Origin: Candidatus Heimdallarchaeota archaeon
GTDB lineage: Archaea > Asgardarchaeota > Heimdallarchaeia > Hodarchaeales > Hodarchaeaceae
Direction of reading: 5' to 3'
DNA: 34,930 bases
Assembly: GCA_020351745.1 (NCBI GenBank)
Contig: CP070665.1
Span: forward strand, 962,843-997,772
Shown piece after piece: positions 9,106 through 32,588 of the stretch (position 1 is its first letter; each line of letters begins with the position of its first letter). The notes under the pieces are model-generated. The model did not search any database. It saw nothing but the letters and a program-made list of their open reading frames with translations, and was not told the origin of the DNA. A program made the translations under genes and the position numbers.

Positions 9106-9231
9106 TGGGCCTGGGGGGATTTGAACCCACGACCATCCGGTTTCTCAAACTCATTTGAGCTATATGAGCCGGACGCTCTAACCATTTCAGAGAGTGAAAG
9201 CGTTAAACACCCTAAACTGAGCTACAGGCCC
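9106..9231 (-). tRNA. tRNA-Met(CAU), elongator-like, with two introns
   Basis: Minus strand: acceptor GGGCCTG/CAGGCCC, discriminator A, D-stem GCTC/GAGC, anticodon stem TCCGG/CCGGA, anticodon CAT, T-loop TTCAAAT. The anticodon-loop intron at 9142-9162 (21 nt) is a model BHB: CUCA/UGAG central helix, bulges UAU and AAA, inner helix AGCUC/GAGUU. The D-loop is 40 nt, implying a second intron of about 30 nt near 9182-9211. Mature length is about 75 nt. The T-stem has one U-C mismatch. CAT could also be tRNA-Ile2 with a modified C34, but the stem sequence resembles elongator tRNA-Met. CCA is not encoded. Confidence 0.85.
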
Positions 9232-20609: not shown

Positions 20610-23096
20610 ATGACTTCAATTGGAACAGTAGTTGCTACATCAGACTCACCAAGTCTAGAGAATATTGAATTAATCCTTGATAAGAATGATCATCAACAGA
20701 TTGAGAGAGGGCAATTTGTGACCATTCCAAAAAACAAAAATCAGGTAGTTTTGGGAATTATTACTGGAATAAAGAAGTATAATGCTTATTATGAAACTTT
20801 GGACTCAAGTGTTCAAGAAATAGCTTCCCGAAATTATGAAGCGATTTTTCCAATCAAAGAATGGGAAAGTACTTTGGCAAATATAAAACCACTTGGAGAA
20901 ATAAGTCTTGAAAGCGGAGGAATAAGCCGATTGAAGTTTCCTGTCTCTCCTGGCTCAAAAGTATATGTTGCTTCGTCTTCAGTTGTATCGAAATTTCTAG
21001 GCCTTGATAATAATGGGATATATTGGGGAGATCTCCCTTCTAACAATGTAAAAATAAGGATAAATCTTTCCAGATTATTACGTAAGCATCTTGCTATATT
21101 AGCAATATCTGGTGCTGGGAAATCATATGCTGTATCTATTCTATTAGAAGAGTTATCTAAGAAAGGGAAAATGAGTGTTCTTGTCATTGATCCTCATGGG
21201 GAATATTCCAGTATTATACCAACCAAGGCGGAAGGTACAAACATTGAAGTCATTAGAGGTTCTTTCATATCAATTGGAGTCCCAGAACTGTCAGCGTGGG
21301 AAATTTCGGAATTCATTCCAGAAATATCAGTTGTACAAACGAGAGTTTTAGATAATATCATTTCTAGTATTCAACAGAAGAATAGAAATTGTTATGGCTT
21401 ACAGGATATCATTCAAATAATTGATACTTCAGAAATAATTAATGTCCGAACAAAAGAAGCACTAATAAGCTGGTTATACTCTTTACAACGTACATATTTG
21501 TTTTCTACGGAAACTAGTCCTAATGTTACAGAATTGTTTCAACCTGGTAAGATAGTAATTCTAGATTTATCAGAGATTCAAAATCTACGAAGTCGAAGTA
21601 TTATTGTATTACATTTCCTGAAACATCTTTACTATCAACGTACAAGAGAGAAAATTCCCCCATCTTTGTTTGTGATTGAAGAAGCTCATCAGTTCTGTTT
21701 AAGCAAAGATACAGAGCTGTTAACTAGTAAAGGATGGAAAAACTATGCAGATGTAAAAGTTGGAGATTTGGCTTTTTCTTATAATAGGGAATTAAAAAGA
21801 TTAGAATTAGCGAAAATTAAGAGATTAATTGTACAAAACTATGAAGGAGAGATGATAAAGCTTTTCAATGAAGATAGCATTAACGCATTAGTTACGAAGG
21901 ATCATAGGGTGTTATGTAATTATAGAACTGTAAGGAAGGATCGCAAATTTTGCTGGTCTAATGATACATTCAGATTTGCAAGAAACTTACCAAGTAATAT
22001 AAGAATACCCGTAACCGCCGAATTTACTAGAAATGGGAAATGCAATATTGATGAAGATCTGTTAAAGATTATTGGTTGGATTCTAACAGATGGTCATATC
22101 CACTATTATGCAAATAAAAAGCATTTTAGATACGAAATTACACAATCAGAAGCTAAAGGAATTATATTACAAGAGATGACTGAAGTTATTACGAGAAAGT
22201 ATCCTGAAACAAGTATTTATGTTCGAAAGGAAGAAGATGAAAAAATCAAAAGAAAACCTGATCACAGTTTTCATTTCAAGAGAAAAGCATCGCAAGAGAT
22301 TGATGTTTGGCTTTTGAAAGAACCACACAGAATTCCAAGAGAAATTCTAGAAAAATGCGATCTTTCTCAATTAAAAATTCTTTTTAATGCGATGGTACAA
22401 GGGGATGGTAATATCCAATACAGTAAAAATGGTTACAAATATATCACATTTTATGCTGGAAAAAACAAAGGTATAGCAGATGATTTTCAAGAATTATGTG
22501 TTAAAATAGGTCTATCAGCAATTCAAAAATTTATTCCCCAAAACAATCAATTTAGGGTACTTGTCTCGTTTAAACGAAAATTTGCTCACGTTAGAAAAAC
22601 AACGACCGAGTTTTATTCAGGTAAAGTGTGGGATATTACAATTAATAATGGTGCCTTTGTTGCTAGAAGGAATGGAAGAGTATTCATTACTGGTAACTGT
22701 CCAGAAGGCTCTCGTTCCATTTCAAAACGTATTATCGAAACAATTGCGCGTGAAGGAAGGAAATTTTACGCTTCATTATGTTTAATATCACAACGTCCAG
22801 TGAATCTGTCTGTTACAGCTCTTTCTCAATGTAATACCAATTTAATTCTTCGTATAAGAAACCCATATGACCAGGATTTCATTGGAAAAACTTCTGAAGG
22901 TATTGATCGTTCTACTCTTAAAATGATTCCTGATTTAGAAATTGGAGAGGCTCTTTTGGTTGGAGAAGGCATCAATTACCCAACTTTCTTTCGGATTAGA
23001 TCACGGACGTTTTACAGTAAAGATTTATCGCCAGATTTGGAAACAATGGCAGACAAGTATAAAGAAACTTGGAGTGTCAAACGTGATACTTCTTAG
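20610..23096 (+). CDS. herA: HerA DNA helicase/translocase interrupted by an intein
   Basis: 828 residues encoded, with an extein of about 494 (normal HerA length). The N-terminal HAS-barrel region is followed by Walker A SGAGKS (K171), VLVIDPHGEY, and Walker B FVIEE (354-358). Immediately after EEAHQF a 334-residue intein (363-696) interrupts the chain, and CPEGSRSISKRIIETIAREGRK resumes the ATPase core. Then SQRPVNLSVTALSQCNTNLILRI and the C-terminal brace. Splicing is needed to rebuild the active site. HerA is a hexameric pump that works with NurA encoded just upstream. Start is ATG 20610. Confidence 0.95.
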   Translation: MTSIGTVVATSDSPSLENIELILDKNDHQQIERGQFVTIPKNKNQVVLGIITGIKKYNAYYETLDSSVQEIASRNYEAIFPIKEWESTLANIKPLGEISLESGGISRLKFPVSPGSKVYVASSSVVSKFLGLDNNGIYWGDLPSNNVKIRINLSRLLRKHLAILAISGAGKSYAVSILLEELSKKGKMSVLVIDPHGEYSSIIPTKAEGTNIEVIRGSFISIGVPELSAWEISEFIPEISVVQTRVLDNIISSIQQKNRNCYGLQDIIQIIDTSEIINVRTKEALISWLYSLQRTYLFSTETSPNVTELFQPGKIVILDLSEIQNLRSRSIIVLHFLKHLYYQRTREKIPPSLFVIEEAHQFCLSKDTELLTSKGWKNYADVKVGDLAFSYNRELKRLELAKIKRLIVQNYEGEMIKLFNEDSINALVTKDHRVLCNYRTVRKDRKFCWSNDTFRFARNLPSNIRIPVTAEFTRNGKCNIDEDLLKIIGWILTDGHIHYYANKKHFRYEITQSEAKGIILQEMTEVITRKYPETSIYVRKEEDEKIKRKPDHSFHFKRKASQEIDVWLLKEPHRIPREILEKCDLSQLKILFNAMVQGDGNIQYSKNGYKYITFYAGKNKGIADDFQELCVKIGLSAIQKFIPQNNQFRVLVSFKRKFAHVRKTTTEFYSGKVWDITINNGAFVARRNGRVFITGNCPEGSRSISKRIIETIAREGRKFYASLCLISQRPVNLSVTALSQCNTNLILRIRNPYDQDFIGKTSEGIDRSTLKMIPDLEIGEALLVGEGINYPTFFRIRSRTFYSKDLSPDLETMADKYKETWSVKRDTS
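21696..22697 (+). mobile_element. HerA intein with LAGLIDADG-type homing endonuclease
   Basis: Coding bases for HerA residues 363-696. Block A is CLSKDTELLTSKGW (nucleophile Cys). Block B is ALVTKDHRVL (TxxH). The endonuclease motifs are IIGWILTDG and AMVQGDG. Block F is VWDITINNGAFVAR. Block G is RVFITGN followed by extein Cys697. The penultimate residue is Gly in place of the usual His. The intein writes Arg almost entirely with AGA/AGG while the flanking extein often uses CGN, which suggests separate origin. Insertion next to Walker B is typical of inteins in P-loop proteins. Confidence 0.93.
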
Positions 23097-29108: not shown

Positions 29109-29307
29109 GGGGACGTAGCGAAGCTAGTGGTCTTACTACAAGCTAGTAAGACCGGACAAGTATCGCGCCGGGCTCCAGAACCCCCTGTGAACTCCACTGG
29201 GTTAACTGAAACTCATGATGAAGTTCTGGAAAAACGAGGAAACTCGGTGTCACCTCTGCCTGCAGCAGGGTGTCCGAAAATCGCCGGTTCAAATCCGGCC
29301 GTCCCCA
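29109..29307 (+). tRNA. tRNA-Trp(CCA) with a D-loop insertion and a long anticodon intron
   Basis: Acceptor GGGGACG/CGTCCCC, discriminator A, D-stem GCGA/TCGC, anticodon stem CCGGG with anticodon CCA (29175-29177), T-arm GCCGG/CCGGC with loop TTCAAAT. The D-loop (29122-29162) is 41 nt and contains a perfect 10-bp hairpin (29129-29138 with 29144-29153), suggesting an insertion of about 30 nt; the splice sites are not resolved. The anticodon-loop intron spans about 29179-29271 (about 93 nt). It has a closing CCCTG/CAGGG stem, a CGAG-GAAA-CTCG hairpin, and box C-like and D-like motifs. The 3' half of the anticodon stem (TCCGA) leaves a C-A mismatch at 27-43. Confidence 0.85.
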
Positions 29308-32350: not shown

Positions 32351-32571
32351 GCCGGGGTTTTGTGCATACATTCGGCTTTACAATCTCCAAAGGTATTACA
32401 ATTCGAAAGCCAAGTGGACGGGTTAATGGTTTTCCATTTCCCTGTAGTACGGCGCTGGCCTTGAGTCCTAAAACAAATGAAAAGCTGTGTCAGAAAGCCA
32501 GTGTACTTTTTGTACCCGAGGGTTCGAATCTCAGGATGTTATTATTCTGAGAGAAAATCCCTCCCCCGGCG
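32351..32571 (+). tRNA. tRNA-Ser(UGA) with four introns
   Basis: Acceptor GCCGGGG (32351-32357) pairs with CCCCGGC (32564-32570), discriminator G, as in archaeal tRNA-Ser. Between position 8 and 9: 49-nt intron 32359-32407, giving mature GCCGGGG-TA-GCC. D-loop: 39 nt (32412-32450) containing a hairpin at 32420-32442, so an intron of about 28 nt. Anticodon stem CTGGC/GCCAG, anticodon TGA (32462-32464), intron 32466-32495 (30 nt). Class II variable arm GTAC-TTTTT-GTAC. T-stem GAGGG/CCCTC with a T-loop intron 32529-32557 (29 nt, TCTCAG/CTGAGA hairpin), giving mature loop TTCGAAT. Removal of all four leaves about 85 nt, right for tRNA-Ser. Confidence 0.85.
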
Positions 32572-32578
32572 CTTTACA

Positions 32579-32588
32579 CTTTTTTTTT
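32579..32588 (+). terminator. Oligo-T terminator after tRNA-Ser(UGA)
   Basis: A run of nine or more T begins about 8 bases after the discriminator base, as expected for termination of an archaeal tRNA transcript. Confidence 0.55.

Follow-up and report, generated by a model that had tools for sequence, protein, structure and literature searches.

A four-intron tRNA-Ser(UGA) gene with an insert between positions 8 and 9

The Hodarchaeales (Asgard archaea) DNA analysed here, a stretch of 34,930 nucleotides that we call the window, contains at 32351-32571 on the plus strand a tRNA-Ser(UGA) gene with five exons and four introns, and the first of these, a 49-nt insert between tRNA positions 8 and 9, is very probably, to judge from sequence comparison, a bulge-helix-bulge (BHB) intron that is spliced by the EndA endonuclease from the transcript of a functional gene. 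This reading is very likely because the insert recurs at one site among relatives and is exactly missing at the same site in others, because the BHB register agrees with that junction, and because the genes of a two-subunit endonuclease are present. An earlier note on this DNA had described the 49-nt insert between the acceptor stem and D-stem, and the sequence at 32359-32407, the recurrence and the empty sites bear it out; its entry did not include the other three introns of the same gene, in the D-loop (28 nt), at 37/38 (30 nt) and at 59/60 (29 nt). The layout of the gene is as follows, with the basis for each assignment in brackets:

32351-32358 (+), exon 1, acceptor 5' strand (positions 1-7, GCCGGGG, 32351-32357) and U8 (32358) (sequence, alignment, in-silico splicing)
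32359-32407 (+), intron 1, position 8/9, 49 nt (empty sites, best BHB register, shuffles)
32408-32419 (+), exon 2, A9 (32408), D-stem 5' strand (GCC, 32409-32411) and D-loop (alignment, outgroup comparison, in-silico splicing)
32420-32447 (+), intron 2, D-loop (about 20a/20b), 28 nt (intron-less outgroup tRNA-Ser(UGA), BHB type)
32448-32465 (+), exon 3, D-stem 3' strand and 5' part of the anticodon arm, anticodon UGA at 32462-32464 (in-silico splicing)
32466-32495 (+), intron 3, canonical position 37/38, 30 nt (BHB helices, absent in outgroup families)
32496-32528 (+), exon 4, 3' part of the anticodon arm, variable arm and 5' part of the T-arm (in-silico splicing)
32529-32557 (+), intron 4, T-loop 59/60, 29 nt (absent in seven relatives, BHB helices)
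32558-32571 (+), exon 5, T60, T-stem 3' strand, acceptor 3' strand and G73 (in-silico splicing)
32580-32588 (+), T9 run, probable transcription terminator, starting 9 nt past the gene end (read from sequence)

The five exons (8, 12, 18, 33 and 14 nt) are collinear within 221 nt, so the gene is neither split nor permuted. Removal of all four introns in silico restores a regular tRNA, as the empty sites also indicate: ARAGORN recognises the joined 85-mer as tRNA-Ser(tga), and gives no Ser call for the unspliced gene or for any of five partly spliced forms. The spliced tRNA has G73 as discriminator and, as read from the sequence, a long variable arm that fits a tRNA-Ser; all of its stems are intact. 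ARAGORN, and Rfam at its gathering score, found other tRNAs of the window and missed this one on account of its four introns; scanning the region with Rfam at permissive settings did not recover it either.

Distribution of the introns among relatives

A DNA search for tRNA-Ser(UGA) over 38 relatives found the gene in every genome of the same genus but G009, where this search did not find it. An insert of 36-49 nt lies at the same 8/9 site in eight genes, those of the window, G007 (copy 1), G004, G010, G001, G011, G008 and G002, and it is exactly absent from the genes of G003, G005 and G006 and from G007 copy 2, the last being a tandem paralogue of the intron-bearing G007 copy 1 (the named records L050-L057 carry the same sequences as the genus alignment). 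These four intron-less genes directly display the mature junction GCCGGGG-TA-GCC that the earlier note had set as a test. In other Heimdallarchaeia families tRNA-Ser(UGA) is wholly intron-less, for example GCCAGGATAGCCAAGCGGACTACGGC... in L090, and such outgroup genes fix the boundaries of the D-loop and anticodon introns. A survey of the window's genome and G001 that parsed tRNA genes from intact T-arms, and so is blind to genes with T-arm introns or atypical T-arms, gave no further 8/9 inserts; D-loop and anticodon introns are common in the tRNA genes of both genomes.

The three other introns have BHB features of their own. The D-loop intron has a central helix of GCGG/CTGT type that is clear in relatives, and a weaker GTGG/CTGT form in the window. 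At 37/38 the outer helix is 8 bp and three of four central pairs form, with a central mismatch in most genes. At 59/60 the T-stem serves as an outer helix of 5 bp, three of four central pairs form and the inner helix is 9 bp; in the genus alignment only the window, G003, G005 and G007 copy 2 have this intron, and it is absent in G001, G002, G004, G006, G008, G010 and G011.

The BHB motif at the 8/9 junction

The motif proposed for intron 1 consists of the following elements (slashes mark predicted cuts):

32353-32356 (+), central helix 5' strand, CGGG, acceptor nucleotides 3-6 (BHB register scan)
32357-32359 (+), 5' bulge GT/T, predicted cut after 32358 (BHB register scan)
32360-32369 (+), inner helix 5' strand, C32365 bulged (folding)
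32393-32401 (+), inner helix 3' strand (folding)
32402-32405 (+), central helix 3' strand, TTCG (BHB register scan)
32406-32408 (+), 3' bulge AA/A, predicted cut after 32407 (BHB register scan)

The inner helix is the one previously noted, 9 bp with one bulged C (32360-32369 with 32393-32401), and the predicted spliced junction in the window gene, at U8/A9, is GCCGGGGU/AGCC. In the window T8/A9 is the sole near-junction register with four central and at least three inner pairs, and among 153 registers compared over the eight genes it ranks first: 31 of 32 central pairs form, and its inner-helix sum is the highest. This register, found independently, is the junction given by the empty sites, and a strict 3-4-3 BHB (two 3-nt bulges and a 4-bp helix) fits there. 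Other junctions (7/8, 9/10 and neighbouring registers) gave a worse BHB or the wrong nucleotides at positions 8-9 and were rejected. The central helix is CGGG/TTCG in the window, CGGG/CCCG in five relatives and TGGG/TCCG in G007 copy 1, and has three of four pairs in G004; its weak points are the two G-U pairs in the window and the one mismatch in G004, and the outer helix is only 2 bp. When the window's insert is shuffled by mononucleotides, a 4-bp central helix with an inner helix as long as the observed one appears at the exact junction at a frequency of 4e-5, and equal or better motifs arise in 4e-5 to 3.4e-3 of single-gene shuffles, values that must not be multiplied across genes because the genes are related.

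Could the insert instead be a permanent part of the RNA? Retention as a fifth arm between the acceptor stem and the D-stem, a feature of some allo-tRNA-like RNAs, has a precedent in bacterial RNAs described with an extra loop at this place (PMC7609411), and a cloverleaf with the insert as a hairpin lies within about 2 kcal/mol of the best predicted fold; we nonetheless regard it as highly improbable, since the insert varies freely in length (36-49 nt) and sequence while the BHB register and the exact empty sites stay, and since the same gene bears three further introns. That the gene is instead a pseudogene in decay, with the insert as debris, is even less probable: the G007 tandem copy with the same intron does have a damaged 3' acceptor strand, but the mature-tRNA stems of the window gene are all intact, the insertion site is shared by other intron-bearing genes, and no second tRNA-Ser(UGA) was found in the window's genome, a single contig of 1.39 Mb (assembly only 71.5% complete by estimate). 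A self-splicing or mobile element of the group I type can practically be dismissed, as we found nothing that speaks for it, the 49-nt insert matches no Rfam family, and the group I catalytic core is a few hundred nt, for which 49 nt is far too short.

The splicing endonuclease

EndA-family genes occur in all 38 genomes, two of them in most. In the window's genome one protein (alpha) is closest to the crenarchaeal Aeropyrum pernix (A. pernix) enzyme; in the alignment its Tyr, His and Lys are in place, and a loop Lys aligns with A. pernix K44. The loop lysine of crenarchaeal EndA has been linked to broad specificity (PMC6379350), and the genome thus encodes an endonuclease that alignment predicts to accept noncanonical sites. 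The second protein (beta) lacks the catalytic His and looks structural, and alpha and beta presumably form one complex. Under the BHB-intron reading this heteromeric EndA would cut in both 3-nt bulges, after U8 (32358) and after 32407, a tRNA ligase, probably of the RtcB type, would join U8 to A9, and the three other introns would be excised likewise.

Folding and the order of splicing

The best ViennaRNA fold of the full pre-tRNA has an energy of -75.7 kcal/mol, the cloverleaf in which the 8/9 insert forms a hairpin -73.5 kcal/mol and the fold with the BHB forced -59.6 kcal/mol, a cost of about 16 kcal/mol that arises because the acceptor stem is broken. Minimum-energy folding does not favour the BHB and was rejected as support for it. 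The BHB competes with the acceptor stem because it uses acceptor nucleotides 3-6. When 5' fragments are folded in isolation, the central pairs reach a mean probability of between 0 (window) and about 0.5 (G011); with a central helix only partly formed, the BHB may be transient or captured by the enzyme, or a relaxed motif may be used. As the central helix takes these acceptor nucleotides, the 8/9 intron would leave before, or in competition with, formation of the acceptor stem.

The earlier note had suggested that GGCTTT in the insert could pair with AAAGCC, which includes the D-stem, and that splicing may depend on fold order. The pairing exists in the window, but by eye the introns of relatives have no matching GGCTTT, and it was rejected as a conserved regulatory fold. 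Dependence on fold order is plausible, but through another competition, as the acceptor stem must give up C3 and G4-G6 for the central helix to form, and we hypothesize that splicing and processing of this tRNA-Ser(UGA) are ordered.

History of the gene

In a FastTree tree built from three proteins, G007 clusters with the window's genome (G000) and G005, and G003 comes next; several deeper nodes are weak. The tandem pair of tRNA-Ser(UGA) genes lies in G007 (L021, L050). Copy 1 has the 8/9 intron and the damaged 3' acceptor strand and lacks the T-loop intron; in copy 2 the T-loop intron is present and the 8/9 intron absent. The window gene is like copy 1 in its 8/9 intron and like copy 2 in its T-arm, with a mixture at the informative sites in between. 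This pattern can reasonably be read as fusion or conversion between tandem copies, or it may reflect losses from an ancestor that had both introns. The combined proposal, that the 8/9 junction is cut only while the acceptor stem is open, and so obligatorily before end processing, and that the four-intron gene is a fusion of two tandem paralogues (an 8/9-intron copy and a T-loop-intron copy), is tentative and rather unlikely to hold as a whole.

Other features observed

A probable tRNA-Trp(CCA) gene at 29109-29307 (+) of the window was missed by ARAGORN and Rfam; it has a D-arm insert, and the long intron in its anticodon loop, with the sequences ATGATGA and CTGA, resembles the C/D-box guide introns of tRNA-Trp in other archaea. 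The tRNA at 9106-9231 (-) has one intron in the D-loop and another in the anticodon loop, and a HerA-like ATPase ORF at 20610-23096 (+) has an apparent intein (EEAHQF/CLSKDTELL... to ...VFITGN/CPEG). On contig 1 of G009 the PAN ATPase gene match lies in two distant pieces (1104456-1105103 + and 1062079-1062585 -), which suggests rearrangement or misassembly.

Discussion

Reviews and the tRNAscan-SE 2.0 paper give three introns at most per archaeal tRNA gene (PMC4033280, PMC8450103, PMC4390854), and surveys to 2021 likewise reach three, whereas this Hodarchaeales gene has four. The noncanonical positions named in PMC4090602 are 3/4, 20/21, 22/23, 25/26, 29/30, 30/31, 45/46, 53/54, 56/57, 59/60 "etc."; that this list, open-ended as it is, does not name 8/9 fits the earlier note's view that introns at this junction are rare. 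The BHB introns of Thermoproteales (Pyrobaculum, Thermofilum) are alike in being short, occurring several per gene and accompanying a heteromeric, broad-specificity EndA (PMC4090602, PMC4033280, PMC8450103), but 8/9 is not among the sites named for them (PMC4090602). In the Asgard groups Atabeyarchaeia and Freyarchaeia 92-95% of tRNA genes have introns, often noncanonical, and over half of the genes have several (PMC11291895, 2024); these are a different lineage from Hodarchaeales, and the main text of that report gives neither positions nor a per-gene maximum. In Caldiarchaeum tRNA-Thr(GGU) genes gained an intron through recombination between tRNA copies, with mobile-element integration as the proposed process (PMC3293823); intron content has changed by recombination there too, whereas the candidate process here is exchange or fusion of tandem tRNA-Ser copies. 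Introns of this kind are already known; what appears new is that a single archaeal tRNA has four of them and that one lies at 8/9, provisionally so because the list in PMC4090602 is open-ended and the main text of PMC11291895 gives no positions.

The gene raises the number of introns documented per archaeal tRNA gene from three to four. The 8/9 site adds a splicing motif that shares nucleotides with the acceptor stem, so that one can test in which order splicing and end processing occur. The host is one of the Asgard archaea, which are of interest for their closeness to eukaryotes, and standard tRNA finders can overlook essential tRNA genes in these genomes.
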